A DNA stretch of 64,000 nucleotides, taken from an uncultured Schlesneria sp. (GTDB taxonomy: Bacteria > Planctomycetota > Planctomycetia > Planctomycetales > Planctomycetaceae). Shown one piece after another: positions 49,201 to 64,000 of this stretch (positions within the stretch are counted from its first letter, which is position 1; each line of letters starts with the position of its first letter). Both the position numbers and the translations under genes were made by a program. The stretch is from NCBI GenBank assembly GCA_903904835.1, contig CAIVEI010000081.1, forward strand, positions 62,001 through 126,000, written 5' to 3'. The notes below the pieces were generated by a model. It was given only the letters and a program-made list of their open reading frames with translations, did no database searches and was not told where the DNA came from.

Positions 49201-50172
49201 ATGTCAAATAAAAATCCAATCACCGGTTTACCGCCACGAATTGTCATCGTGGGATCGATCAATATGGATCTGGTGGCTAGGATGCAGCGTTTGCCGAAAC
49301 CGGGAGAAACGGTCACGGGTGAATCGTTCCAGACGATTTCGGGTGGCAAGGGGGCAAATCAGGCTGTGGCGGCAGCACGGTTAGGTGCCCGAGTCTCAAT
49401 GATTGGACGACTTGGCGACGATTCTTTCGGTGTCACGTTGCGAAAGAATTTGAACTCTGCGGGTGTAGATACGAATCACGTCCTAGAGACCCATGGGGTT
49501 TCAAGTGGAGTTGCGTTGATCGGTGTCGAGCAGTCAGGAGCCAATGCAATCACCGTCATTCCTGCGGCAAACGGTCAGTTAACGGCGGGTGACGTGCGAT
49601 CATGTCAGGAGATGATCTCGACCGCCAACGCGTTGATCGTACAATTGGAGACACCGATCGAGACGGTGGCGGCGGCAATTCAAATTGCAAAAAAGAACGG
49701 AGTTTTAACCGTTCTCGATCCAGCTCCCGCGCCAAAAGGCCCATTGCCGCAAGAGCTGATGACTGTTGATATTCTCAGCCCGAATCAGTCGGAAGCCGAA
49801 GCACTGACAGGTATTCCCGTTGTTGATTGGGAATCTGCAAAACATGCAGCACGAGCGATGAGGAATCTGGGAGCTAACGCCATCGTATTGAAGATGGGGG
49901 AGCTTGGGGCATTGGTTGTGGCTCAAGACGGGACCATTCATCAGATCGCCGCATACAATGCCAAAATCGTTGACACAACGGCTGCCGGGGATGCGTTTAC
50001 GGCAGCGCTGACCGTTGCATTGTGCGAGGGACAGCCATTGAAGAATGCAGCCCATTTTGGATCGCTCGCGGGGACCCTGGCCTGCACTCGATTTGGTGCT
50101 CAACCAGCGATGCCGACTCGCGCTGAGCTCACGAAATGGGCGGAGTCGCTCTCCGAGGTTGTCAATTTGTAA
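49201..50172 (+). CDS. rbsK: Ribokinase (PfkB family)
   Basis: 323 aa from ATG 49201; a GTG at 49153 would add 16 residues without similarity. PfkB signatures: VIVGSINMDLVARMQRLPKPGETV, GGKGANQAVAAARLG near the start, and DTTAAGDAFTAALTVAL with the catalytic aspartate (the first G of the usual DTTGAGD is A here). NGVLTVLDPAPA and ILSPNQSEAEALTG match ribokinase. It phosphorylates D-ribose to ribose-5-phosphate in the cytoplasm. No ribose transporter is adjacent. A FucU/RbsD-family mutarotase gene lies at 35.2 kb. Confidence 0.9.
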   Translation: MSNKNPITGLPPRIVIVGSINMDLVARMQRLPKPGETVTGESFQTISGGKGANQAVAAARLGARVSMIGRLGDDSFGVTLRKNLNSAGVDTNHVLETHGVSSGVALIGVEQSGANAITVIPAANGQLTAGDVRSCQEMISTANALIVQLETPIETVAAAIQIAKKNGVLTVLDPAPAPKGPLPQELMTVDILSPNQSEAEALTGIPVVDWESAKHAARAMRNLGANAIVLKMGELGALVVAQDGTIHQIAAYNAKIVDTTAAGDAFTAALTVALCEGQPLKNAAHFGSLAGTLACTRFGAQPAMPTRAELTKWAESLSEVVNL

Positions 50173-50211
50173 TCGGAACCGGGGCAACACGGTCTTTAAC
50201 CGCAGTACGCG

Positions 50212-51540
50212 TCATTTTGCGGGAAGTCCCAGTCGTTCCATTAACCGATAGAGCTTGCGTCGGTGAACGCCAAGCATCCGCGCGGCCTGAGATTTGTTCC
50301 CCTGGCATTTTTGGAGAACGTCCAGGACATGCGTCCGTTCCATTGATTCCAGATTTGTGTCGCCCTGAACTGCAAACGATGTTTCGGCATTGTCAATCGA
50401 ATTCACGATATCTGAAGGAAGATCGTCAACCGTCACAGTGTTTCCCTCGGCGAGAATCGTCGCTCGTTCGAGGACGTTCTTGAGTTGTCGCACGTTGCCT
50501 TGCCAGCGATATCGGATGAGTATCAATTCAGCGTCCGCTTCGATGTCCCATTGATCGGGCAGGAAGTAACGAATCAATAACGGAATATCGTTCGAGTGTT
50601 CGCGGAGTGAGGGTAACGTGATTGCCATGACATTAATCCGGTACAACAGATCTTCACGAAATCGCTGCTCACGAACTTCTTTCACAAGGTCGCGATTTGT
50701 TGCCGCGATGATGCGTACGTTGACTCGACGTTCCTGTGACGCCCCAACTCGACGAAGCGAACCATTCTCCAGAACGCGTAATAGTTTCGGCTGCAGGCTT
50801 GGTGGAAGTTCGCCGATTTCATCAATGAACAATGTTCCTTGATCGGCAATTTCGAAAAGACCAGGCCTCGACTTCACGGCCCCTGTAAAAGCGCCTTTCT
50901 CATGTCCGAACAATTCGCTTTCAACCAATTGTTCTGGCAAGGCCGCACAGTTCACGGTCACAAATGGTTGATCGACACGCCGGCTCGCCCGTTGGATCGC
51001 TTGCGCCGTCAGTTCTTTACCCGTTCCGGTTTCACCCTGAATCAGCACCGGTGCGTCCGTTGGACCGACCCTCGCAATCAGGCGATAGACTTCGCGCATC
51101 TGCGGTGATTCACCGATCAGCACAGGCATCGTTCGATTTCGTTCGGCGAGGGTCTTCCATCGTAATCCATCTCGCCGCAAGCGACCCCGTTCAGCCGCTT
51201 TGACACACCTCTCTTCGAGTGCAGCCAACGGAAACGGTTTTGAGAGATAGTCGCACGCCCCGCGCTTCATTGCTTCGACCGCAGTCTCAACAGTTGCTTC
51301 TCCTGTGAGGATGATCACTTCGATTTCATCGGATTTACTACGAAGCTCTTGCAGCAAGTCGATTCCCGAAAGGTCGGGCAAGTTCGCATCGAGAATCGCC
51401 ACTTCGAATTGTCGATGTCCAACTAACTCTAAAGCGGAGCGACTGTCCGCCGCTTCAGCGACACAATGACCTTTGCGCACCATCCACTGCGAGGCGATGG
51501 TACGGAATTCGTCGTCGTCTTCAACAATCAAGAGTTCCAT
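50212..51540 (-). CDS. Sigma-54-dependent response regulator, NtrC family
   Basis: 442 aa from ATG 51540. Receiver domain: LLIVEDDDE, phospho-acceptor D51 in AILDANLP, T in ILTGEA and K in LSKPF. AAA+ domain: Walker A GETGTGKE (168-175), GAFTGA (215-220) that contacts sigma-54, LFIDEIGELP, and the R-finger region FREDLLYRINV. The Fis-type helix-turn-helix at the end is NKSQAARMLGVHRRKLYRLM. It activates sigma-54 promoters when phosphorylated. It is divergent from the cbb3 oxidase operon; the shared region holds a -24/-12 promoter match directed at that operon and two direct repeats likely bound by this protein. Those repeats lie just upstream of its own start, so self-regulation is possible. 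Confidence 0.93.
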   Translation of the reverse strand: MELLIVEDDDEFRTIASQWMVRKGHCVAEAADSRSALELVGHRQFEVAILDANLPDLSGIDLLQELRSKSDEIEVIILTGEATVETAVEAMKRGACDYLSKPFPLAALEERCVKAAERGRLRRDGLRWKTLAERNRTMPVLIGESPQMREVYRLIARVGPTDAPVLIQGETGTGKELTAQAIQRASRRVDQPFVTVNCAALPEQLVESELFGHEKGAFTGAVKSRPGLFEIADQGTLFIDEIGELPPSLQPKLLRVLENGSLRRVGASQERRVNVRIIAATNRDLVKEVREQRFREDLLYRINVMAITLPSLREHSNDIPLLIRYFLPDQWDIEADAELILIRYRWQGNVRQLKNVLERATILAEGNTVTVDDLPSDIVNSIDNAETSFAVQGDTNLESMERTHVLDVLQKCQGNKSQAARMLGVHRRKLYRLMERLGLPAK

Positions 51541-51547
51541 AAACCAA

Positions 51548-51597
51548 TTGTGACAAATCCGCACACCTTCCGCACGCGTTGTGACACTCACGCACAC
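51548..51597. promoter_or_regulatory. Two direct repeats, probable enhancer (UAS) for the NtrC-type regulator
   Basis: TTGTGACA-N4-CGCACAC occurs twice, at 51548-51566 and 51579-51597, 31 bp apart (about three helical turns). Each copy contains the dyad TGTG-N9-CACA. They lie ~90-140 bp upstream of the -24 element, the usual distance for enhancer-binding sites of NtrC-type activators, and 8-57 bp before the regulator's own start codon. Confidence 0.65.
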
Positions 51598-51684
51598 TGA
51601 CGCCATCTTGCAATGGTTTGTTGTGCTCTGGGCATTTTCCCTGAATTCGTGGCTTAAACCGCATCATTTGATGCATTGGCTCGA

Positions 51685-51702
51685 TTGGCATCTGAATTGC
51701 AA
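51685..51702 (+). promoter_or_regulatory. Sigma-54 (-24/-12) promoter of the cbb3 oxidase operon
   Basis: TTGGCATCTGAATTGCAA: the GG (51687-51688) and GC (51699-51700) dinucleotides are exactly 10 bases apart, and the flanks TGGCA and TTGCA match the sigma-54 consensus (TGGCAC-N5-TTGCA) at all but one of the conserved positions. Transcription would start near 51712, ~100 bp before the cytochrome gene's GTG. An adjacent, divergent sigma-54 activator gene supports the call. Confidence 0.72.
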
Positions 51703-51813
51703 ATGGGTTCAGCCAGCAGTGATTTCACAGACGCGATGGGTAATAGCCCGTCCTTCTGGTTTTGAAAAGACAGTCATTGGACGATTTTGTATCGGTCTCC
51801 TTGGGAGAGTAAT

Positions 51814-52833
51814 GTGCTTCATCCGGATCGATGGATGTCTCTGTGCGGCGCGCTGGCTTTGGTGTGTGTGATCGGTTGTCATCGATCTGAGCCGCCTCAA
51901 TTCGTGATCAGTGAAACGGCAAAAGACTTGTCTGCCGAGTTGCAGCAGGCCGTTCAGGCCGAAATGGCAAAGCAAACTGGAACGTTTCTTAAGCCAAAAA
52001 TGCTGATTTCAGACGGTGATAGTCACCAGGATCTCAGTCGCGGTCAAGCGGTTTATCAAGAACGTTGCGTGCAGTGTCACGGCGTCAGCGGTGATGGCAA
52101 TGGTCCTTCTGCAAAATATATGTACCCTCGCCCCCGCGACTATCGAAGGGGGATTTTCAAATTCGCTTCGACTCCCTATGGCTATCGCCCTCTACGCGAT
52201 GACCTGGTTCGTACGGTGCGGCAGGGGATTCGTGGTACTTCAATGCCTGGCTTCAATCTGTTGCCGGAAGCTGATGTGCAGTCGGTGGTCGACTATGTGC
52301 TGACGCTGGGTCGCCGGGGTGAGTTGGAACGGCAAGTTATTGACATGGCTGATTCCGACAGTGCCGTCAATTCGGACGAGGTGAAAAGCGATCTGATTCC
52401 TGCCGTGCTGACTCGTTGGTCAGAAGCAGAAGCTGCTGAAGTTCTTCCCGCGTCACCACAGCCGCGATTTACTCCTGAATTTGTTGAACGGGGTAAGAAG
52501 GCATTTTTGACGCGAGGCTGCTCAAAGTGCCATGGTGAGGATGGGCGAGGTCAGACCGCTGATAATCGCGGTGCTGATGCCTGGGGTTTTCAGACGCGAG
52601 CGGCAGACTTGACGTCTGGGATGTTGCACGGCGGCAACAGGCCGATCGATATCTATCGCCGGATTTACAACGGTATCAACGGCACGCCTATGCCCAGTTT
52701 CGCGAATGTATTGAAGGACGAACCAGAGACGGTTTGGGATCTGGTGGCCTACGTGCTGTCGCTGACGGACAAGCGACGCCGCGGCGATATTCCGACTCCA
52801 GGCCCGATTAAGCCGTATGTCCCGGCGAAGTAG
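51814..52833 (+). CDS. Di-heme cytochrome c lipoprotein
   Basis: 339 aa from GTG 51814, which has GGGAG six bases upstream; the TTG at 51787 is not supported. A lipoprotein signal ends in VIGC, so the mature protein would be lipid-anchored at the first cysteine. Two class I cytochrome c domains follow: CVQCHGVSGDGNG with a later MPGF methionine ligand, and CSKCHGEDGRGQ with MPSF. In the locus it occupies the place of CcoP (FixP), the di-heme subunit of cbb3 oxidases, but is anchored by lipid rather than a helix. It is the first gene of the operon, 112 bp after the sigma-54 promoter match. Confidence 0.9.
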   Translation: MLHPDRWMSLCGALALVCVIGCHRSEPPQFVISETAKDLSAELQQAVQAEMAKQTGTFLKPKMLISDGDSHQDLSRGQAVYQERCVQCHGVSGDGNGPSAKYMYPRPRDYRRGIFKFASTPYGYRPLRDDLVRTVRQGIRGTSMPGFNLLPEADVQSVVDYVLTLGRRGELERQVIDMADSDSAVNSDEVKSDLIPAVLTRWSEAEAAEVLPASPQPRFTPEFVERGKKAFLTRGCSKCHGEDGRGQTADNRGADAWGFQTRAADLTSGMLHGGNRPIDIYRRIYNGINGTPMPSFANVLKDEPETVWDLVAYVLSLTDKRRRGDIPTPGPIKPYVPAK

Positions 52834-52866
52834 TTGTTCGTAATCTCGTTCATAAGGACCATCTCT

Positions 52867-53523
52867 GTGACAGTCGACGCTCGCAAGGTTCAGGAACTGG
52901 AAGAACTCCGGACTCGGGTCAGGGAGCTTGAAACCCAGGTTGAAGCCGAAAAAACGGCTGGCCAATGGCCGCCCAAAGGCTTCTATGCCGAATACTATGC
53001 CACAACCGGGTTCATCCTGGGGATGTTCGGTGCGGCGATGAGTTTGCTGGTCAACGTCATCGGCGCGCCCATTGCCAAAAAGAGTCCGCTGGAATTGATC
53101 CGAATTTACCTGACCTTCCCTCTTGGAGAGAAGGCGTTGGAGCTTGCGTCGGGGGTCAAAGATGTTTACGTCATCGGCGACGGAGTAATTCTGGCAATCG
53201 GATGCTGTCTTTATCTCGGGACGGGAATGGTGCTTGGAATTCCGTTCTTTGTGTCACTGGTTTGGCTGACGGAAGGGAAGTCTGTCATCTATCGGTTGTT
53301 CATCGCGACGATCCTGGCTGCTCTTTTGTGGGCGATCAATTTCTGGGGAATTCTGTCCTGGCTACAGCCTTTGTTGTTCCACGGCAACTGGATCACAAAC
53401 CCCGATTACTTGCCGAGTTGGGTTGCTTTAGTGACACACCTGATCTTCGGATGGACGTTAGCACTGCTTTATCCGTGGGCCAAATTCCAGGCGTACACGC
53501 AGCCAACCGGTCAGGAAACATAA
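52867..53523 (+). CDS. Coiled-coil membrane protein of the oxidase locus
   Basis: 218 aa from GTG 52867 (AAGGA eight bases upstream). The first ~30 residues are a strong coiled coil (VQELEELRTRVRELETQVEAE). A soluble-to-membrane transition and about five hydrophobic segments follow (e.g. GFILGMFGAAMSLLVNVIGAP, AILAIGCC-type, FIATILAALLWAINFWGIL). There are no heme motifs. I do not recognise the family. Position between the cytochrome and ccoN suggests an accessory subunit or assembly factor of this oxidase. It begins 33 bp after the cytochrome stop. Confidence 0.75.
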   Translation: MTVDARKVQELEELRTRVRELETQVEAEKTAGQWPPKGFYAEYYATTGFILGMFGAAMSLLVNVIGAPIAKKSPLELIRIYLTFPLGEKALELASGVKDVYVIGDGVILAIGCCLYLGTGMVLGIPFFVSLVWLTEGKSVIYRLFIATILAALLWAINFWGILSWLQPLLFHGNWITNPDYLPSWVALVTHLIFGWTLALLYPWAKFQAYTQPTGQET

Positions 53524-53613
53524 CGAACGACGTCAAGAAAACCTGTCAACCGGGGTTGTCATGATCGTTCGAATTGAATTCATGGAAATGAAACGACTTT
53601 CAGGAATTTTCGC

Positions 53614-55038
53614 ATGAGTGCTGGAACAAATATTGTCACTGCTGATCGTACTTTCCCCAAGCATCAGGATTTGGTGGAAGAGCAGTTGGTGCTCTGGTAC
53701 TTCGTTGCCGCTTTGTTATTCATGACGGTATCGATGTTGGCGGGCACTTTGATGGGGCTGCAACTGATCCGACACAATCCTCTTCCATCGATCGAAATCC
53801 TTTCGCCCGGTCGATGGCGAATGATTCACACAAACGCGATCGCCTATGGTTTTCTCGCGAACGCTTTTCTGGGGATCATGCACTGGGTAATACCGAGATT
53901 GACCTTGCGTCCGTGCCTCAGTCGCCCCCTCTCATACATGATCTTCGCCGCCTGGCAGTTTGTTGTGCTGGCGACGGCAGTCGGGATCATGTTCGGTCAA
54001 GCTCAGGGACTGGAATGGGGCGAAACGCCAGTCTGGATCGACCCAGTGGCTCAACTGGGGCTATTGCTTGTCGCGATTAATTTCGGAGCACCGATTTTAC
54101 AGACGCGTGGGCCGATGTATGTCACACTTTGGTATTACCTGGCGGCACTGGTTTGGACATTTCTGACATACGCCATGGGAAATTTCGTCCCAGAATACTT
54201 CGTCTGTGGCTCGAGTGCTGGAGCCGTCGGGGGACTGTTCATTCACGACCTGGTCGGCCTGTTTGTCACACCGCTCGGTTGGGGGATGATGTATTACTTC
54301 GTGCCAATCCTGTTAAAACGACCCATGTGGAGTCACGGCCTGTCACTTGTTGGATTCTGGGGCCTGGCGTTCTTTTATCCACTACAAGGAATTCACCATT
54401 TCCTCTATACACCGATCCCGATGTTCCTGCAGTACGGGGCCGTGCTTTCGACAATTGCCTTGGAACTGGTTGTCGTGACAGTGATCATTAACTTTGTGGG
54501 AACGTTGTACGGTACTGGTGGGCTGGTCGTTACAAACCTTCCTCTGCGATATTTCTACACCGGTATCTTGTTCTACTTCTTGACCTGTCTTCAGTGTGCG
54601 CTGCAAGTGACGATGACATTCCAGGCTCTGATCCACTTTACAGATTGGGTTGTCGGTCACGCCCATATGGTGATGTTTGGTGTTTTCAGCATGTGGCAAC
54701 TTGGAGTCATGACTTACCTGGTTCCTCGGATTCTCAAAACAGAATGGTACAGCACGAAATGGTGTGAATGGCATTATTGGGCCTCGGCTGGCGGACTGCT
54801 GGTCATGTCAGGTGACCTGATTCTGGGCGGTTTATTTCAGGGATGGTCATGGGCCGCACTGCAACCATGGGATGCTTCAATTCGTCTTTCGATTCCTTTC
54901 TGGTCCGTTCGTCTGGTCGCAGGCGGTGTGATCTTTGCGGCCCAGATCTTGTTCATGCTGAATTTCTACCTGACTTGGCGCAATGCACCGCGAACGACTC
55001 CCGTTACGGAACCTGCGTCAGGACTGGCGACGGCGTGA
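53614..55038 (+). CDS. ccoN: cbb3-type cytochrome c oxidase subunit I
   Basis: 474 aa with twelve membrane helices. Heme and copper ligands are visible: H in WRMIHTNAIAYGF (low-spin heme), H in LFIHDLVGLFVTP (Cu-B side), the HH pair in GIHHFLYTP, and H-x-H in GHAHMVMFGVF (heme b3 and low-spin). This is the catalytic subunit that reduces oxygen to water and pumps protons, in the cytoplasmic membrane. The sequence is divergent from proteobacterial CcoN (for example HDLVGLF where HNAVGFF is usual). ATG 53614 has AGGA eight bases upstream. Confidence 0.92.
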   Translation: MSAGTNIVTADRTFPKHQDLVEEQLVLWYFVAALLFMTVSMLAGTLMGLQLIRHNPLPSIEILSPGRWRMIHTNAIAYGFLANAFLGIMHWVIPRLTLRPCLSRPLSYMIFAAWQFVVLATAVGIMFGQAQGLEWGETPVWIDPVAQLGLLLVAINFGAPILQTRGPMYVTLWYYLAALVWTFLTYAMGNFVPEYFVCGSSAGAVGGLFIHDLVGLFVTPLGWGMMYYFVPILLKRPMWSHGLSLVGFWGLAFFYPLQGIHHFLYTPIPMFLQYGAVLSTIALELVVVTVIINFVGTLYGTGGLVVTNLPLRYFYTGILFYFLTCLQCALQVTMTFQALIHFTDWVVGHAHMVMFGVFSMWQLGVMTYLVPRILKTEWYSTKWCEWHYWASAGGLLVMSGDLILGGLFQGWSWAALQPWDASIRLSIPFWSVRLVAGGVIFAAQILFMLNFYLTWRNAPRTTPVTEPASGLATA

Positions 55039-55142
55039 CAAAACGTCCGTGAATTGGTTTGAAGTCTATTGATAAGTGCAATCATTCAATCCGGGCGGCT
55101 CGGGCACTCGGATATTTGAACGGCGAAAGTTCAGTCAGTGTA

Positions 55143-55186
55143 GGTCAAGGAATTCGGGATGAGATCCCGTTGAGTTCGCCTTGACC
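55143..55186 (+). promoter_or_regulatory. Stable mRNA hairpin between ccoN and ccoO
   Basis: Outer stem GGTCAAGG (55143-55150) with CCTTGACC (55179-55186); inner stem CGGGAT (55155-55160) with ATCCCG (55164-55169). It sits 24 bp before the ccoO start within a 171 bp gap. No T-run follows, so it may protect mRNA ends or tune ccoO expression rather than stop transcription. Confidence 0.5.
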
Positions 55187-55209
55187 GCTTATCCTGAAGG
55201 GCAGATTTC

Positions 55210-55896
55210 ATGTTCGAACGTAAGTCCGGCATCATCTTGATTGCAGGCATTGGCTTTTTCGCCTTGGCCTTTCTTTCAAATGCCGTTGTTCCAGTATTGA
55301 TGTATCAGCACATGCCGGAAAAGTCGGTCAAGGAGCTGATTAACGGCAACTTGCGTTATCAGTTCGAAGATCTGGCTCAACGATTCCCGGACGCGTTTGA
55401 GAAAGCTTACGGCCAACCCCCCGCCGATCCGGAACAGGCAAGTACCTGGTATAACGATCACTGCGAAAGTGCGTTAAGGCTGGGACATCAGATCTATGTC
55501 GGCGAAGGCTGCTGGCACTGCCATAGCCAGTTCGTACGACCGGTTTCCAACGAAGATCGCCGCTGGGGTCCTGTTTCAAAATCGTGGGAATACCAGAACG
55601 AACTGCAGCGGCCCGTGATGTTTGGTACGCGACGCGTCGGTCCTGACCTCTGCCGCGAAGGAGGCCGTCGATCGAGTGATTGGCAAGCGGTGCATCTGTT
55701 TCATCCAGAAGCACTCTCCGTTGGATCGCCAATGCCAAAATATCCGTGGTTGTTTGACGGTGCTCCAGACAAACCTACGATTCGCGGACTGGCGCTGCTC
55801 ACTTATATCCAATGGCTTGGGTCATGGCACGAAACATATCCCTACTATGAAGACTACATCCCTGTTCCCATCAAAACTGCTTCGAAAACGGAGTAA
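55210..55896 (+). CDS. ccoO: cbb3-type cytochrome c oxidase subunit II
   Basis: 228 aa. An N-terminal membrane anchor (IILIAGIGFFALAFLSNAVVP) is followed by a periplasmic mono-heme domain: GCWHCHSQFVRPV with CxxCH and the family's following Q-x-x-R-P, and RRVGPDLCREGGR. The methionine ligand is in GSPMPKYPWLF. This is CcoO/FixO, which passes electrons from the di-heme cytochrome to CcoN. ATG 55210 is preceded by AAGGG. The next gene begins 3 bp after its stop. Confidence 0.93.
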   Translation: MFERKSGIILIAGIGFFALAFLSNAVVPVLMYQHMPEKSVKELINGNLRYQFEDLAQRFPDAFEKAYGQPPADPEQASTWYNDHCESALRLGHQIYVGEGCWHCHSQFVRPVSNEDRRWGPVSKSWEYQNELQRPVMFGTRRVGPDLCREGGRRSSDWQAVHLFHPEALSVGSPMPKYPWLFDGAPDKPTIRGLALLTYIQWLGSWHETYPYYEDYIPVPIKTASKTE

Positions 55897-55899
55897 CTC

Positions 55900-56193
55900 A
55901 TGACTGAGCAACGCGAGCCATATCGTACACATTGGCTGACCTGGTTTTTTTCGGCGGTCGTTCTGATTCCGACAATTCTCGGGTTTGCAAACAAGTTTCT
56001 GGATCTGGTGCTTGTCGTTCAAGGGGACGAAGACGGAGCTTTTGCCGTCACGCCGATTTGTAATTACCTATTTGCAACGGCTGGGTTCCTTTGCTTATTT
56101 GTCTGGACAGCTACTCAAGGAGCCTTTCAAAACCTTGACGGTCCCAGCCATACAATGATGGAAAATGAGCAGCGACTGGATTCTCAACCTTAA
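55900..56193 (+). CDS. Small two-helix membrane protein of the oxidase operon
   Basis: 97 aa. Two hydrophobic segments (WLTWFFSAVVLIPTILGFANKFLDL and YLFATAGFLCLFVWTA) separated by a short acidic loop. No cysteine pair or heme motif. I do not recognise the family. Its start has GGAG upstream and it is translationally close to ccoO, so it is probably an oxidase-associated small subunit. Confidence 0.7.
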   Translation: MTEQREPYRTHWLTWFFSAVVLIPTILGFANKFLDLVLVVQGDEDGAFAVTPICNYLFATAGFLCLFVWTATQGAFQNLDGPSHTMMENEQRLDSQP

Positions 56194-56297
56194 GCGACGT
56201 CAAAGTCCTGCATTGATATCAGTTTTGGCCAGGCGGCGAACCGCACGTCCAAAAAAATTTGCTCGACAGGGAATGAGATTCGATGGAGACAATTTAG

Positions 56298-56477
56298 ATG
56301 AACTCGACACCGGAATCCGCCACGCCGGAACAAGAATCACGTTTCCATACCTACGCCAGTCACGTTATTCCGTGGTACGTGCGTTTAATCTGGCTGTTCT
56401 TCTGGGTGTTTGCCATCGGATATGTGGTTGCTTACTTTCTGCCAGCCATTCAAACTGAGCTGTTGACGCCTCCATGA
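56298..56477 (+). CDS. 59 aa single-helix protein, CcoQ/CcoP-anchor-like
   Basis: 59 aa; ATG 56298 with GGAG ten bases upstream, stop TGA overlapping the ccoI start as ATGA. After a polar segment (SATPEQESRFHTYASHV) there is IPWYVRLIWLFFWVFAIGY leading to a single long helix that ends at LPAIQTELL. It resembles the short membrane part found in CcoQ or in the N-terminus of CcoP. Since the di-heme cytochrome here is a lipoprotein, this could be the detached CcoP membrane anchor or a CcoQ-type small subunit. The gene is easily missed because of its size. Confidence 0.7.
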   Translation: MNSTPESATPEQESRFHTYASHVIPWYVRLIWLFFWVFAIGYVVAYFLPAIQTELLTPP

Positions 56478-58663
56478 AATCAGCGAAACCGATAACTGAC
56501 GTCGCTACTGATACAGCAACCTGTGATTATTGCGGGTTACCGTTGTCGGGTTCGGCGTTGCAGGACGAGCCATCGTACTGCTGTTACGGTTGTCGTTTCG
56601 CAGCAGGAATTTCCAATCAGCAAGATACTTCCGCAAACCCTATGGGTCCTGCGACGGCCTTAGGTTTCTCTGTTTTTTTTACGATGAACGTCGTCATGCT
56701 GACGATGTCGTTGTGGAGTTACGCAGCCCAACCTCAGACAGCGTTTGAAGAGGCTTTGGCAGCATTCTTGCGATATGGCGCGATGGCCTTTTCGCTTCCG
56801 GTCTTATTGCTGCTTGGACGACCGCTCGTCAGCCATGCAATGACCGGCTTGCGACGAGGGTTTTTCACGACCGATCTTCTTTTGGCGACAGGTGTGATCG
56901 CGGCTTTTGCCGTATCGATTGTCAGTACATTGCGCGGTGTCGGACACGTCTATTTCGAAGTTGGTTGCGTGATCCTGGTTCTGGTGACGATTGGCAGATG
57001 GTTGGAAGCAGCCGGCAGGTCCCAGGCTTCGACCGCTTTGGATCAGTTGGAACGACTGGTTCCCGAGACTGTTCGCCTTCGAGAATCTGGTGTCGACATC
57101 GCCACGCCCAGAAACCAGATTTCTGTCGGGAATCACTTGCATGTCATTGCGGGCGAGCGGATTCCCGTCGATGGGAGTGTCGTACAAGGACGTGGGGTTG
57201 TCGATGAGCAATTCTTTACGGGTGAAAGCACTCCTGTCGAAAAGAGAACCGGCGATCCCTTGCTGGGTGGTAGTTTAAACCTCGACGGCGATTTAATAAT
57301 CGAAGTCACAGCTCCTCCGAATGCAGGAGCGTTGGGACGCCTGGTCAATGCCGTTCGCGCGGCGCGTTTATCCAAAGGGCACTACCAACTGCTGAGCGAT
57401 GCCTGGTCACAACGCGTATTTCCAATCATTTCAGTGATCGCGTTAGCCGCGTTGATCTACCACGGCAGGCGAATTGATTGGGATTACGGGTTGCTGACGG
57501 CATTGTCGGTCGTGTTAATCGCCTGTCCGTGTGCATTGGCTTTGGCAACACCACTTGCTGTCTGGGCTGCACTTGGGACAGCCGCGAAGAAAGGTGTTTT
57601 GTTTCGTAGTGGAGCGGCGTTAGAGACGATGTCCGGAATTCGGGCCATCCGCTGGGACAAAACCGGGACGTTGACGACCGGCAAACCAGGCGTATTAAGA
57701 TTGGCTTGTGAAGATTCAACGGACCGCGTCGCGATCGAACAAATTGCGGCATCGGTCACAGAAGCGTCTGATCATGTCTTTTCATTGGCGATTCGCGAGT
57801 TCCTGTCAGAGGTCGAGCCACTCACTTCTACAGTCAATGTGCAGACCGTTCCCGGGCGAGGGCTTCGCACATGTTTAGATAATGGTCAAGTCGTGATGCT
57901 GGGGGCGATTCGCTGGATGGAAGATTGCGGTCTGGACTGGGGTGCGAATCTGTCGCGCCTGATTAACGATCCGGTCACAGCAGACTGTCCGATGACGGCA
58001 ATCGGATATAACGGGCGAGTCCAGGGTTTGTTTTTACTGGAAGAAACGATTCGTCCCGAAGCTTTTGCAGCGCTGCAGCACTGTCAGCGGCTGGGGCTTG
58101 ATCAGGCCGTGTTAACCGGTGATCGAGCAGCACGAGCGGCTGGTCTGGCGAAGATATTTGGGATTCCCGTCGCAGCGGAGCTTTTGCCGCAGGATAAGCT
58201 GGCGGCGATTCGTGCTGCACATGAACAGTTTGGCAGCGTCGCAATGGTCGGCGATGGCCTCAACGATGCTCCGGCATTAGCGGGATCTGATATCGGCATC
58301 GCGCTGGGCTGCGGAGCCGATGTCAGCCGCGATTCCGCTGGTGTTTGCCTGCTGTCGAGCGATCTGCGATTGATTCCATGGACCTATGAATTTTCGCAAA
58401 GGACTGTCGGTACAATCCGTACAAATCTTGCTTGGTCGTTTGGTTACAACAGTATTGGTGTCATCCTCGCCGCGTGTGGACAATTACATCCGGCCGTCGC
58501 GGCGGTCTTGATGGTTGTCAGTAGTTTGATGGTGCTGGGTAATTCGCTGCGGCTGTCAGCCGACAGCCCCTTCGCTCCGAGGGAAGCGTACAATAGCGAC
58601 GGTCCAGAGTCGGTTACCGGAGCGACGGCAGATGCCGTTACACCGAAGGAGGCCACATCATGA
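56474..58663 (+). CDS. ccoI: Copper-transporting P-type ATPase of the oxidase locus
   Basis: 729 aa. The N-terminus has a cysteine-rich module (C17, C20, C36, C37, C40: CDYCG...YCCYGC) instead of a CxxC heavy-metal domain, as in FixI/CcoI. P1B features: FTGESTPVEK, the CPC motif in IACPCALALATPLA near residue 350, phosphorylation site DKTGTLTTG near 395, TGDRAA and VGDGLNDAPAL. The usual SEHP loop reads SDHV, so the conserved proline is missing. It supplies copper to the Cu-B site during oxidase assembly. It starts inside the 59 aa gene's stop and its own stop overlaps the next gene, so expression is tightly coupled. Confidence 0.93.
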   Translation: MKSAKPITDVATDTATCDYCGLPLSGSALQDEPSYCCYGCRFAAGISNQQDTSANPMGPATALGFSVFFTMNVVMLTMSLWSYAAQPQTAFEEALAAFLRYGAMAFSLPVLLLLGRPLVSHAMTGLRRGFFTTDLLLATGVIAAFAVSIVSTLRGVGHVYFEVGCVILVLVTIGRWLEAAGRSQASTALDQLERLVPETVRLRESGVDIATPRNQISVGNHLHVIAGERIPVDGSVVQGRGVVDEQFFTGESTPVEKRTGDPLLGGSLNLDGDLIIEVTAPPNAGALGRLVNAVRAARLSKGHYQLLSDAWSQRVFPIISVIALAALIYHGRRIDWDYGLLTALSVVLIACPCALALATPLAVWAALGTAAKKGVLFRSGAALETMSGIRAIRWDKTGTLTTGKPGVLRLACEDSTDRVAIEQIAASVTEASDHVFSLAIREFLSEVEPLTSTVNVQTVPGRGLRTCLDNGQVVMLGAIRWMEDCGLDWGANLSRLINDPVTADCPMTAIGYNGRVQGLFLLEETIRPEAFAALQHCQRLGLDQAVLTGDRAARAAGLAKIFGIPVAAELLPQDKLAAIRAAHEQFGSVAMVGDGLNDAPALAGSDIGIALGCGADVSRDSAGVCLLSSDLRLIPWTYEFSQRTVGTIRTNLAWSFGYNSIGVILAACGQLHPAVAAVLMVVSSLMVLGNSLRLSADSPFAPREAYNSDGPESVTGATADAVTPKEATS

Positions 58664-59463
58664 CACCTCTGTGGTTAACGATGCTGGGTGGTCTTTTGGG
58701 GTCATCTCACTGCGTGGGAATGTGCGGAGGTTTTGCAGCGATTGTCGGGCTTCGTACGGGTTCAATGGTGGGAAATCTGCGGGCTCAACTGGTCTATAGC
58801 ACGGGCCGTTTAATGAGTTACGCAACCCTCGGAGCGATTGCCGGTTTTGCAGGGCAGCGCCTTTCCGATTCCCTTCCGAAAATGATTAATGTTCCGGCAG
58901 TGCTGTCCCTTTTGGCCGGAGTATTTCTTGTACGAGAAGGGTTGCTGGCGACGGGCTTGTTTACTCGACGGATTACTGGAACTTCAACCACAGGATGCCT
59001 TTTAGGGCCATTATTCTCGACAATATTGAAGACCCCGGGAGCACGCAATACCTTTGCTGCTGGAATCATCACGGGCCTGTTACCCTGCGGATTGGTCTAT
59101 GCATTCGTCTCGCTTGCAGCAAGTTCCGGTGATTTGCTGCTTGGTGCCAGTACCATGCTGGCGTTTGGTCTTGGGACGGTTCCATTGATGGTTGTCACGG
59201 GGTGCGGAACCGCGCTGCTCAGTTGGACGGCCCGCCAACGCCTGTGGCAGGTTGCCGCCTGGTCCGTCGTTATGACGGGACTGCTGACGGTCGGGCGCGG
59301 TGTTGGATTTCTCCAGTTAAAAGACGAACCGCAAGCCGTTTCTTGCCCCTTCTGCAAAGAGACGCCGATACAGGCCCCGGTGCGACTTCGAAGTAATTCG
59401 TTCCCGATCATCGACTTCAAAGTCAGCCCAGTTGCTAACGCTAATCAGAACCCTCAACCATAA
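58660..59463 (+). CDS. TauE/SafE-like (UreH-type) membrane protein, CcoI-linked
   Basis: 267 aa with about six helices and two proline/cysteine helices typical of the DsbD/UreH-like group: GSSHCVGMCGGFAAI and GLLPCGLVYAFVSLA. Proteins of this kind are regularly encoded after CcoI (often annotated CcoH/SulP-like or sulfite exporter TauE/SafE) and help oxidase maturation, perhaps in copper or heme handling. A cysteine pair at CPFC near the C-terminus is extra. AAGGAGG precedes the ATG, and the start overlaps ccoI by four bases. Confidence 0.85.
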   Translation: MTPLWLTMLGGLLGSSHCVGMCGGFAAIVGLRTGSMVGNLRAQLVYSTGRLMSYATLGAIAGFAGQRLSDSLPKMINVPAVLSLLAGVFLVREGLLATGLFTRRITGTSTTGCLLGPLFSTILKTPGARNTFAAGIITGLLPCGLVYAFVSLAASSGDLLLGASTMLAFGLGTVPLMVVTGCGTALLSWTARQRLWQVAAWSVVMTGLLTVGRGVGFLQLKDEPQAVSCPFCKETPIQAPVRLRSNSFPIIDFKVSPVANANQNPQP

Positions 59464-59481
59464 CATGTGATGTTGTCGATC

Positions 59482-59961
59482 ATGAATCCATTAGAAGCAG
59501 CGGTGGCGTCATCGGAAACTCCGTCAACGGAGAACGTTATTGTTGCGCGGAAAGCCTTGCCAAAGGGAACCTTTTGGAGTCGTTACAATACGATCATCAA
59601 CTTTTGGCTCGATGTTCTTCTTCTGATCCTGTTTATGATTCAGGCATGGATGTTCGCAGTGCTTCGCGTCGTTTTTCCACGTGGGGCTGGTTCTGACTGG
59701 AAAATCTGGGGCGCTACGCCGCTCGACTGGTCGGAAGCCTTGTTTACAACCTATTGTATCTTTGCGGCTGCCGTCGTGGTGCACGTCATGTTTCACTGGC
59801 AATGGATCTGCGCCGTCGTGGCGACCCGTTTTTTTCATTGCAAACCAGGTAAAGATGATGGTTCGCATACGCTGATCGGTGTCTGCGTGCTGGTATTTCT
59901 CGTCCACCTGCTTGTGATCGGCATTTTAGTCACAAAGGTCGGATTGGTGAATTCGACGTGA
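59482..59961 (+). CDS. DUF4405-like membrane protein
   Basis: 159 aa from ATG 59482 (GTG 59467 and ATG 59470 are possible). About three helices: NFWLDVLLLILFMIQAWMFAV, FTTYCIFAAAVVVHVMFHWQWICAVV with three His/Trp-rich positions, and LIGVCVLVFLVHLLVIGILV. The WLD start and histidines in the helices fit DUF4405, which resembles di-heme b-type subunits. It is 18 bp after the TauE/SafE-like gene. A role in electron transfer to the oxidase is possible but inferred. Confidence 0.65.
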   Translation: MNPLEAAVASSETPSTENVIVARKALPKGTFWSRYNTIINFWLDVLLLILFMIQAWMFAVLRVVFPRGAGSDWKIWGATPLDWSEALFTTYCIFAAAVVVHVMFHWQWICAVVATRFFHCKPGKDDGSHTLIGVCVLVFLVHLLVIGILVTKVGLVNST

Positions 59962-59976
59962 GATGGACTTTTGATA

Positions 59977-61437
59977 ATGACGTATAACACCAATCCCGAG
60001 GAATTTCTTCCGGATACACGCTTTCGCCAAGTCGTTGAAGCGTCACCTGCCGGAGTGATCCTGGTTGACGAACGTGGAAGAATTCAACTGGTCAATGCTC
60101 AAATCGAAAAATGGTTTGGTTACACCCGATCTGAAGTGACGGGCCAATTCATCGAGTTTCTTGTTCCCGACAGCATCCGGCCATTACACGTCGAACTGCG
60201 GAATCAATATCTGTGTGCGCCGGACGTAAGGCAGCTAGGATCAGGCCGCGACCTTTCCGCTCGTCGAAAAGACGGAACTGAGTTTCCCTGTGATATCAGC
60301 CTTCATCCGTTGCCTTCAGAACACGGCATGCAAGTCATGGTTCATATTGTCGATATTACCGAACGACGAAGACTTGAAGCGGAACGTCGACAACTGGAAT
60401 CGCATAAGCGACTTCGTTTCATGGTCGATAACTTGCCTGCGGGGGCCGTCAATATCTCTGCCGATTCGATTCAAATGAACCGAGCCACCGAAGAGATCAC
60501 CGGATACCGCCGCCAGGAATTGGACACGATCGAGCGTTGGTTTGATGTTCTGTTTCAACAGCGGGGACCCAAAGTACGTGAACAATACTTGATCGATCGG
60601 GCGGCGAATTTTCCGCAAACTCGCACGTGGGAGTTAATTCGCCGTAATGGTCAATCACGCTGGGTTGAACTGACCGCCTTTCGCGATGGAAACGATGAAG
60701 TCTGGCTTCTACACGATGTCACAGATCAAATGCGAGCGCAACAGCAAGTCGTCCAGGCTGAGCGGCTGGCGGCGATTGGCCAGATGATGACCGCCTTGGC
60801 GCATGAAAGCCGTAACGCCCTGCAACGAGCACAAGCCTGCCTTGAAATGCTCGAACTGGACCTTGAAGATCGGCCAGAACTTTTGAATCTGGCCCGGCGG
60901 TCTCAAGTTGCCGTCGATGAATTGCAGCGGCTATACGAGGAAGTACGCGGGTACGCAGCGCCGTTGGTCCTGGAAATTCGCGAATGGAATCTACAGACAA
61001 TCTGCGAGGAAGTCTGGGAACACCTCAAGACATCCCGCAGCCAGAAGCAGATTGAGTTCACAATCGATGCGTTGACTGTCTCGCCCGTCCGTCATATCGA
61101 CCGACATCGTTTCGGTCAGGTCCTGCGAAACATCCTTGAAAATTCCATTTCAGTCCTGCCTGCATACGGTGGAACGATCAAAACCGCTTTCAGTTTCGAG
61201 GCTGGAACTGCGACGCCGAGATTGAGAATCACGATTCAAGACAACGGACCAGGTCTGAACGCCGAACAGAGGGCCCGCATTTTCGAACCTTTTTATACGA
61301 CGAAATCGCGTGGAACAGGACTGGGAATGGCAATTGCCAAACGGATCATGGAAGCCCACGGTGGAGAAATAACTGTTGGGAATACGGAGCACGGAACGGA
61401 AATCATATTGCTTCTGCCGAATGAGGAACGTCGGTGA
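59977..61437 (+). CDS. PAS-domain sensor histidine kinase
   Basis: 486 aa from ATG 59977. Two PAS domains: RFRQVVEASPAGVILVDERG with the RRKDGTEFPCDIS/DITERR end of the first, and RFMVDNLPAGAVNISADS with a second DVTDQM end. The HisKA box is ALAHESRNALQ with the phospho-histidine; the ATPase has RNILENSISVLP (N box), DNGPGL, and FYTTKSRGTGLGMAIAKRI. There is no membrane segment, so it senses a cytoplasmic cue through PAS. It is the last but one gene of the locus and probably pairs with the adjacent response regulator and/or the NtrC-type regulator at 50.2 kb. Confidence 0.93.
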   Translation: MTYNTNPEEFLPDTRFRQVVEASPAGVILVDERGRIQLVNAQIEKWFGYTRSEVTGQFIEFLVPDSIRPLHVELRNQYLCAPDVRQLGSGRDLSARRKDGTEFPCDISLHPLPSEHGMQVMVHIVDITERRRLEAERRQLESHKRLRFMVDNLPAGAVNISADSIQMNRATEEITGYRRQELDTIERWFDVLFQQRGPKVREQYLIDRAANFPQTRTWELIRRNGQSRWVELTAFRDGNDEVWLLHDVTDQMRAQQQVVQAERLAAIGQMMTALAHESRNALQRAQACLEMLELDLEDRPELLNLARRSQVAVDELQRLYEEVRGYAAPLVLEIREWNLQTICEEVWEHLKTSRSQKQIEFTIDALTVSPVRHIDRHRFGQVLRNILENSISVLPAYGGTIKTAFSFEAGTATPRLRITIQDNGPGLNAEQRARIFEPFYTTKSRGTGLGMAIAKRIMEAHGGEITVGNTEHGTEIILLLPNEERR

Positions 61438-61506
61438 AATAATATTAAAAACTTATTAAATTCCGCGGCGAGCAAACTTACGACCGTTTGCCCGAAGGGA
61501 TGACTC

Positions 61507-61881
61507 GTGTCGAAAAAGTCTTTAAGAATCGTGATTGCTGACGACGAAGTCGATATGCGCGACTATCTGCAGAAAGTCTTGCCGCGCTGGGGGCATCTTG
61601 TTGTTGGTGTCGCGGAAAACGGGACTCAACTCGCCAGCGAATGTCGAAAGAGCAAACCCGACCTGGTGATCACGGATCTGAAAATGCCAGACGGTGACGG
61701 TGTCACCGCGATTAAAGAAATCTGGCAGGACCAACAGATTCCTGTCATCGTGATTTCAGCCTATCCGCAAGACATACCCGAATGGTTAACCGGTCATCCC
61801 TTGCTCGCCTCGGTTTTGATCAAACCGATCAAAACCGCTGACCTGGAGCCTGTCGTCACGCGCGTTGCCTTATCGAACTAA
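61507..61881 (+). CDS. Single-domain response regulator
   Basis: 124 aa, receiver only: IVIADDEVDM acidic pocket, phospho-acceptor Asp in VITDLKMPDGDG, Ser in VISAYP and Lys in LIKPIK. There is no output domain. It starts at GTG 61507 with AAGGGA upstream, 69 bp after the kinase. Such proteins act as phosphate sinks or protein partners. It may compete for, or relay, phosphate from the kinase. Its stop codon overlaps that of the convergent ftsH. Confidence 0.92.
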   Translation: MSKKSLRIVIADDEVDMRDYLQKVLPRWGHLVVGVAENGTQLASECRKSKPDLVITDLKMPDGDGVTAIKEIWQDQQIPVIVISAYPQDIPEWLTGHPLLASVLIKPIKTADLEPVVTRVALSN

Positions 61882-63884
61882 CCGCTTTGCGAAACGTCAC
61901 CCTGATTGACAGCGTCGTCCTGAGTGCGAAGTGGTGAGGACGTTGTCGCAGCAAATGTTCCAGGTTTCAGTTGCGGACCGGTCTTATACTGGTCAAGGAT
62001 CGCTTGCAACTGATTTGCATCGATCACTTCTTTCTCCAGTAATTCTCGCGTGATATGTTCCATCACATTTCGACGCGATAACAGCACTTCATGAGCCGTG
62101 TCGTAAGCAGCATCAATGATCCGGCGAACTTCGAGATCGATTTCCCGGATCGTTTCTTCGCTGTGGGAATGATCAGCCGGAGCACTACTTCCACCCAGGA
62201 ACGGACTACTGCGAGATTCGCTGTAGTGAACCCGGCCGAGTTTTGCACTCATACCAAACTCGGTAATCATCCGACGTGCAAAGTCCGTGGCTCGCTGAAG
62301 ATCGTTTGAAGCACCGGTCGAGTTCTCGTTGTAAATGATTTCCTCGGCTGCAATCCCGCCCAGCAGCACACAAATCCGGTTCTGGAGTTCGGTCTTTGTA
62401 ATCAGTTGTCGATCGTCTTCCGGACGCTGAAGCGTGTAACCCAGGGCACCAAGTCCCCGAGGAATGATCGATACTTTATGCACGGGATCAACGTGTGGCA
62501 GCGAACAGGCCACAAGAGCGTGCCCGACTTCGTGCCAGGCAACTCGCTGTTTGACTTCTTCGGGCATCACTCGTGCTGTCTTTTCCAGCCCTGCGACGAC
62601 GCGGTCAAACCCCTCTTCAAATTCATCGTTGGAAACCGAAGTCTTGTTCTTTCGAGCAGCCAGGAGAGCCGCTTCGTTGACGAGGTTCGCTAGATCCGCT
62701 CCGACGAACCCAGCCGTCAACTTGGCCAGGTGCTTCAAATTGACCCCTTCGTCCATTTTGACCTTAGCCGCATGAACTTTCAGGATGGCTTCACGCCCTC
62801 GGATATCAGGTCGATCGACAAGAATATGTCGATCGAATCGACCGGGTCGCATTAAAGCGGGGTCAAGGGTTTCAGGACGATTTGTCGCGCCGAGCACGAT
62901 CACGCTCTGGTCAGAACCGAAGCCGTCCATTTCGACCAGAAGCGCGTTTAATGTTTGATCCCGCTCTTCTCCACCACCCGGGGCACCGTGGCTGCGAACT
63001 TTACCGATCGCGTCCAGCTCGTCGATGAAAATGATCGCGGGGGACCGCTGACCTGCCTGCTGGAACATGTCGCGCACACGAGCTGCACCAACACCGACAA
63101 ACAACTCGACAAAGTCCGATCCCGACAGGCTGAAGAACGGAACACCCGCTTCGCCTGCAACCGCTTTCGCCAACAGCGTCTTGCCGGTTCCTGGAGGACC
63201 GACCAATAACACCCCGCGAGGAATTCGTCCTCCCAAAGCCTGATACCGTGAAGGATTGCGGAGGAAATCCACGATCTCGCGCAGCTCTTCCACCGCTTCT
63301 TCAATTCCTGCGACATCGTTAAAAGTGATGCCAACGTCTTCCTGGGCAAACAACTTTCCACGGCTTCGACCGAATGCGATGGCAGATCCGGGTCCATTCA
63401 TGCGACGGAACATGACCCAGAAACAACCCAGGCAGATTGCGGTGAACAGCGTAAGATAAAGCAAATCACGATACGGGGAAGGGGGTTCATCATAACCCCA
63501 GTCGTCGATGTGTTCAGTACGAAGAAGTTCGTCGAGACGTGCTTTCTCGGCGTCGCTCATACTGCCAACGGAAACGGTGTATTGTTCAGGACTGCGCTTG
63601 GCATTCGTCAGGTGTTTTGGCTGGTCCTGAAACGTGATTGTGCTATGTCCACGGCGAAGTTCAAAGACGTTCTCGGCATGTAACGTGTGATCTTCAAGAC
63701 GCTTGACGAATTCGCTGTAAGTCAGTGTCTTTCCCCGCCACTTGGCAGAAAAACCAAACAGGATTGCTCCGAGGACCGCGAGGATCATCAGAAACCAGAA
63801 CAGATTGCTGGAATTACCTTTGTCAGGCTTTTTGCTGGGTGGTTCCGGCAAGTCCGCCGGGCGTTTTGGTTCTGATTTAGACAT
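61878..63884 (-). CDS. ftsH: ATP-dependent zinc metalloprotease FtsH
   Basis: 668 aa. Two N-terminal membrane helices ([17 protein letters not shown] and [19 protein letters not shown]) flank the periplasmic domain. AAA: Walker A GPPGTGKT (229-236), Walker [28 protein letters not shown]. Protease: HEVGH (451-455; usually HEAGH), with the third zinc ligand D in ASNDLQRAT. It extracts and degrades membrane and regulatory proteins in the cytoplasmic membrane. The N-terminus has a ~25 aa proline/lysine-rich extension before helix 1, and the C-terminus a Ser/Thr-rich tail. The remaining 116 bp to the window edge hold no gene. Confidence 0.97.
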
Positions 63885-64000
63885 AAAGTGTCAATCATCC
63901 TGTATAACTGGCTGCGACCATGATGAAAACAATCGCAAGAAAACTTAGGGTCGCAAACGTCCAACGAATAAACCGTTAACTCTAGGCCGTCAAACTATCG

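Follow-up and report, generated by a model that had tools for sequence, protein, structure and literature searches.

Which regulator switches on the cbb3-type cytochrome oxidase genes of an uncultured Schlesneria, and in answer to what signal? Oxidases of this type serve low-oxygen respiration and are usually under FNR/FixK control. The locus examined here lies in a stretch of 64,000 nucleotides (the window) on contig C81 of an 8.18-Mb genome in 211 contigs, and its layout points elsewhere: comparison with relatives gives good support to the view that 51541-51813 controls a cbb3 operon through sigma-54 and a dedicated activator. Taken as a whole, we think it likely that a low-oxygen two-component system would drive this operon directly via sigma-54. 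The features on which this reading draws are as follows.

50212..51540, minus strand: NtrC-family response regulator (Pfam: REC, sigma-54 AAA+, Fis-type HTH), divergent
51548..51566, plus strand: putative enhancer dyad 1 (TTGTGACAAATCCGCACAC), exact; 16 of its 19 columns do not vary among 7 loci
51579..51597, plus strand: putative enhancer dyad 2 (TTGTGACACTCACGCACAC), exact; 10 of its 19 columns do not vary among 7 loci
51685..51701, plus strand: sigma-54 -24/-12 promoter element TTGGCATCTGAATTGCA, exact match, recurring before the orthologous operon
51814..52833, plus strand: two-haem cytochrome c that opens the operon; its GTG start codon is preceded by GGGAGAG
52834..53523, plus strand: 229-aa membrane-type protein without family (no Pfam or NCBIfam match)
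53614..55038, plus strand: cbb3-type oxidase subunit I, CcoN-like (COX1 over cut-off)
55210..55896, plus strand: cbb3-type oxidase subunit II, CcoO/FixO-like (FixO over cut-off)
56474..58663, plus strand: heavy-metal/copper P-type ATPase, CcoI-like (TIGR01525 and TIGR01511 above cut-off)
58660..59463, plus strand: DsbD_2-family membrane protein (PF13386)
59467..59961, plus strand: 164-aa membrane-type protein without family (no Pfam or NCBIfam match)
59971..61437, plus strand: PAS-PAS histidine kinase, PAS1 closest to the FixL haem domain
61507..61881, plus strand: REC-only response regulator

The regulator is a complete NtrC-family activator, with REC, AAA+ and Fis HTH domains and the GAFTGA motif. 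In the predicted operon, subunit I was also matched by the ccoN and cbb3 models, and subunit II by the ccoO models, in each case below the cut-offs of those models; the two-haem cytochrome c is distant from CcoP and scored far below the ccoP cut-off. DsbD_2 genes often stand in cbb3 assembly clusters. The two proteins without a family (52834-53523 and 59467-59961) accompany the oxidase in related loci and are possibly new accessory subunits.

The candidate promoter has GG at 51687-51688 and GC at 51699-51700, and the exact spacing of ten bases claimed in the earlier note can be read directly from 51685-51701; the arrangement is thus GG-N10-GC with a TGGCA...TTGC core. We found that TTGGCA-N6-TTGCA occurs exactly at no other place in the window. 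Allowing up to two mismatches raises the count to 29, where 20.8 would be expected, and only the exact match is therefore out of the ordinary. Transcription from this element is predicted to start near 51711. RpoN is encoded at one place in the genome (PF00309 over cut-off), and a scan of 51500-51850 found no sigma-70-like promoter, the mean in shuffled sequence being 0.6.

Upstream of the element, the earlier note had seen two TTGTGACA-N4-CGCACAC repeats 31 bp apart, and both proved exact (51548-51566 and 51579-51597). Up to three mismatches in this motif give six matches in the window against 2.3 expected. Each repeat is a 17-bp dyad of the pattern TGTG-N9-CACA (TGTGAC-N5-CGCACA), as is usual for sites of NtrC-family proteins. 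The two stand in tandem and in helical phase, 31 bp from centre to centre with 14 bp between them; the near end of dyad 1 is 8 bp away from the start codon of the regulator. Exact TTGTGAC-N5-CGCACA is found at two places in the 8.18-Mb genome, both in the 51541-51813 region, and with one mismatch at six further places, the reversed control giving one in all. The looser TGTGMSN5SKCACA is found at three places genome-wide, two of them beside the regulator's start (reversed control, five). A tandem TGTG-N9-CACA pair is present in 9 of the 170 genomes of the family, in five of the nine within the intergenic region of the cbb3 operon; because the reversed pair also occurs in 5 of 170, it is place, not count, that speaks. 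Genome-wide, neither the looser dyad nor the strict sigma-54 pattern (below) is in excess, and the case rests on position and conservation.

These elements suggest a simple circuit. Low oxygen or an over-reduced electron chain would lead the PAS kinase (59971-61437) to phosphorylate the NtrC-family regulator, which would bind both dyads cooperatively, 31 bp being three helical turns. From the dyads, the regulator would loop to the -24/-12 element some 100-130 bp away and open the promoter, switching on a 10-kb operon that would comprise the oxidase, the copper-supply genes and the kinase. As the kinase would lie inside its own target operon, positive feedback would follow. The regulator probably also controls itself, since dyad 1 lies in its own leader.

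The regulator has relatives well beyond this locus: 81 of the 170 family genomes gave regulator hits at E <=1e-105. In a tree of 73 rows, from which L036 (stops) and L062 (short) were left out, 49 regulators fall in one clade with support of 100/100, and nearly all of these 49 carry an HRRKLYR recognition helix. Linkage of the regulator to the cbb3 locus, a label that covers divergent, upstream and downstream placements, was gained or lost at least five times on this tree. Clade regulator and oxidase are found together in 44 of the 170 genomes, the oxidase only in 30, the clade only in 12 (that is, without an oxidase at the cut-off used) and neither in 84.

Kinase hits (E <=1e-60) were obtained in 67 of the 170 genomes. 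Among 59 loci fetched around regulator hits, 36 contain an open reading frame of one kinase cluster (cluster 1). Forty clade loci lying apart from the oxidase were fetched, and 24 have such a frame; in 15 of these 24, the kinase lies within 700 bp of the regulator. Because relatives of the two proteins thus neighbour each other in other genomes, the PAS-PAS kinase is likely to be the regulator's partner. We found an H..Y...IIGxGR signature like that of the FixL haem PAS in the kinases of 18 of the 24 clade loci, compared with 0 of 12 outside the clade; at L115, the signature is missing from the nearer kinase but present in a more distant one. For the PAS domain at L106, the match to the FixL haem domain reaches 4.9e-32.

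PAS1 of the window kinase, at 59980-60405, matches the same domain at 1.1e-15. Its best relatives in the PDB are FixL, then DosP and EcDOS, and FixL and DosP are also the best folds for its model, with other PAS and LOV proteins close behind in the ranking. The haem-ligand histidine of FixL is aligned at 60187-60189, and the arginine of GxGR is aligned as well; these residues, H70 and R90, are invariant in six sequences. The full HDxY...IIGIGR signature, present in relatives, is absent from the window kinase, in which HDxY has become HVEL and IIGIGR has become LGSGR, and we therefore do not class the protein as a FixL member. Since the signature is eroded and model confidence is low at this very stretch (residues 68-76 and 81-85, the haem stretch), haem binding by PAS1 is uncertain.

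Oxygen, sensed through a FixL-type haem PAS, would be the most likely but unproven input. The best-surviving alternative, which we hold to be possible though clearly less likely, accepts the sigma-54 promoter and the adjoining regulator and replaces the signal: copper, nitric oxide or redox/energy stress would be sensed, and the PAS domain would have another ligand or none. The divergence of the window PAS1 from the FixL signature, together with its poor model at the haem stretch, favours this view, as do the universal stress proteins and Hsp20 found near relatives of the regulator and the heavy-metal ATPase in the operon itself. It is harder to reconcile with the FixL-like signature kept by 18 of 24 clade-locus kinases, with the close match of one of them to the FixL haem domain and with the low-oxygen role of cbb3 oxidases. 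The NmpR regulon of Myxococcus, similar in content, has, moreover, been proposed to answer oxygen limitation (PMC11841059).

Over the 440 bp of the window that were scored, no FNR box turned up even when two mismatches were allowed, and such boxes are not enriched over the 57 family loci described below (ratio 0.98). HTH_Crp_2 (PF13545) gave four matches in the genome, none over the cut-off, the control search being positive in 14 of 14 genomes; cNMP_binding was matched at ten places, none of which coincides with the HTH_Crp_2 places. One protein, at L304, resembles a cNMP-FHA protein by eye from its translation. FNR/ANR controls ccoNOQP, a target operon of the same type; here neither an FNR box nor an HTH_Crp_2 domain above cut-off accompanies it. 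In rhizobia, the low-oxygen two-component system FixLJ-FixK2 controls cbb3. The present locus resembles that arrangement in that a low-oxygen two-component system would govern cbb3 and in the PAS domain closest to the FixL haem domain; it differs in that the response regulator is of NtrC type and would act directly via sigma-54, with no FixK intermediate indicated.

A nearer precedent is NmpR of Myxococcus xanthus, a sigma-54-dependent regulator with a cbb3 operon in its regulon (PMC11841059). According to the same paper, that operon comes with a P-type ATPase, the regulon includes a universal stress protein, the paired dyads are mostly 14-15 bp apart, and the need for sigma-54 was shown at the mxan_4236 promoter. 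The likeness in described features lies in an NtrC-like regulator, an N5-centred dyad and two sites (14 bp apart here). The dyads themselves differ, GCGCA-N5-TGCGC in Myxococcus and TGTGMS-N5-SKCACA here, and so do the sensors: NmpRSTU passes the signal from a globin-type haem kinase to a hybrid kinase, in contrast to the single PAS kinase of this locus. The suggestion that the locus is a different circuit thus stands with respect to FNR/FixK, but has a precedent in NmpR (PMC11841059).

Whether the sites recur in relatives had been set as the test on which the proposal should stand or fall. CcoN was found in 74 of the 170 family genomes, at 75 places, of which 72 were fetched; with the window, itself one of the three places not fetched, these make 73 loci. 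Fifty-seven were scored, those dropped having no cytochrome/CcoN match, less than 430 bp upstream or, as for L055, L056 and L079, a truncated sequence. Score weights came from a general sigma-54 consensus, and family counts are of raw genomes and loci, regardless of kinship and with several genomes incomplete. In 28 of the 57 loci, the 430 bp preceding the cytochrome gene contain a sigma-54 match that scores at least 22. The number expected is 0.9 as estimated from 1538 windows elsewhere in these loci and 0.4 as estimated from shuffles; on the reverse strand, 1 of 57 reached the score. These data indicate that the element recurs at the same place in many genomes of the family, beyond chance.

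The repeats are also kept in the nearest loci, as an alignment of seven with an adjoining regulator (the window, L032-L034, L036, L041 and L042) reveals. Invariant columns number 7 of 17 in the promoter, 4 of 12 between the dyads, 4 of 87 in the spacer and 6 of 99 in the leader; the 31-bp spacing of the dyads is kept across these relatives, and the spacer has diverged. In the 50 loci outside this alignment, the density of exact dyads before the operon (5 in 21.5 kb) is 17 times that in control windows (8 in 578 kb). These 50 include L043, L070, L085 and L087, which have a regulator at the locus; loci whose regulator is encoded elsewhere have few exact dyads.

Within the genus, the kinase is present in 4 of 15 genomes (G000, G142, G144 and G146), and the same four have an unbroken regulator hit. 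G137 has a broken regulator frame and a decayed dyad 2, and no kinase was seen in it. Six other genus genomes have CcoN and no regulator, with the upstream region readable in four: no dyad with up to one mismatch occurs in 500 bases of L035, L037 and L039 or in 425 bases of L040. The readable upstream regions without a regulator thus being without a dyad, dyads and regulator go together. The promoter match tracks the regulator less strictly: the scores of the readable regulator-less genomes are none in G135, 20.0 in G139, still 22.0 in G145 and 23.0 in G136.

This looser tracking bears on a second, improbable alternative, in which the sigma-54 promoter is real, another NtrC-family activator acts on it and the adjoining regulator mainly serves other genes. 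When clade membership is set against sites, eight genomes being assigned to the clade by identity alone, a site of at least 20.5 is found in 31 of 38 clade genomes and in 6 of 19 others. Those six fit another activator, as does L040 (outside the 57 because of its short upstream), which has a site of 23.0 in a genome without a regulator hit; candidates abound, too, with 23 to 149 first-look NtrC-type proteins in each listed genome, ten per genome being scored. Against the main reading, 20 of the 57 loci have no site of at least 20.5, seven of them in clade genomes, and L087 has none even though a non-clade regulator adjoins its operon. L068, also outside the 57, has a strong site (25.0). The adjoining regulator nonetheless remains the better candidate: two of the three TGTGMSN5SKCACA places in its own genome lie beside its start, it co-occurs unbroken with the kinase in the genus, and readable loci without them have no dyad. 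That the promoter match and repeats arose by chance or are relics, with the operon transcribed by a housekeeping sigma factor, we consider most improbable, for although the strict pattern YTGGCAYN5TTGCW gives only 6 matches genome-wide (no excess over the 12 of the reversed control) and planctomycete housekeeping promoters may not fit a sigma-70 scan, the recurrence in 28 of 57 loci, the footprint in the alignment and the lack of any sigma-70-like promoter in the scan all speak against it.

Beyond the family, a class-wide search with the cytochrome gave matches in 113 of 397 genomes. Among 80 loci, eight chosen by title (Pirellulales, Pirellula, Blastopirellula or Bythopirellula) gave a score of at least 21 in five cases, against 9 of 290 control windows; the Isosphaeraceae- and Aquisphaera-titled loci gave 0 of 3, against 5 of 116. 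We regard as evenly balanced the broader proposal that in Planctomycetia a FixL-like haem-PAS oxygen kinase was paired with a sigma-54 activator of NtrC type, which took the place of FixJ-FixK/FNR, to switch cbb3 and stress genes at low oxygen, and that both genes then moved to the oxidase locus in Schlesneria and a sister genus, forming a self-contained module with feedback. Planctomycete sigma-54 sites were reportedly predicted by Studholme and Dixon in 2004; in the open-licence literature, judged by title and start of abstract, we found no planctomycete counterpart of this circuit. Sigma-54 regulons with csrA and universal stress proteins are described for Planctomycetia in PMC12316311, whose main text contains neither "cytochrome" nor "oxidase". 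If our reading of the locus is right, many members of a planctomycete family would have a concrete non-FNR, sigma-54 oxygen circuit whose regulator, kinase, binding motif and start site are all predicted and testable. Alongside Myxococcus NmpR, the locus would then offer a second case of cbb3 placed under sigma-54, this one with a sensor of FixL type where Myxococcus has a globin, and it would mean that the cbb3 operon was rewired more than once.

A sigma-54 regulon next to the regulator is weakly supported: sites near the regulator precede 4 of 14 single universal stress protein genes and 2 of 4 Hsp20 genes, compared with 13 of 314 others. Genes for Hsp20, VIT-family, universal stress and weakly cytochrome c'-like proteins recur near regulators outside cbb3 loci (L104, L106, L112, L113, L118 and others). 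Of the sites before REC-ANTAR/REC neighbours (7 of 8), five were set aside, being the codons of a kinase motif, GTGLGMAIA or GSGLGMAIA, just upstream; the remaining two (L124 and L134), outside that motif, may be real. At L138 (1414-1734), a dyad and a sigma-54 site precede a universal stress protein gene, and at L115 (-313 to -19 from the regulator start) they precede the regulator gene itself, in keeping with a wider regulon and with autoregulation.

The 5' leader of the window operon (51706-51817) is conserved in four genus genomes (AGCAGTGATTT ... TTTCTGGTTTTGAAAAGACAGTCA); its predicted fold is a closed stem that encloses hairpins, and one terminator-like hairpin lies at 51735-51752. A regulatory RNA in this leader was considered and rejected, as one compensatory pair among 31 in four sequences is no evidence for it, and Rfam gave no match in 50000-64000 at the gathering threshold. 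One of the genome's six strict sigma-54 matches (G000:C45:35085-35101; L167, around 1501) stands about 100 bp before a CsrA-like gene, in agreement with the sigma-54 control of csrA reported for Pirellula (PMC12316311).
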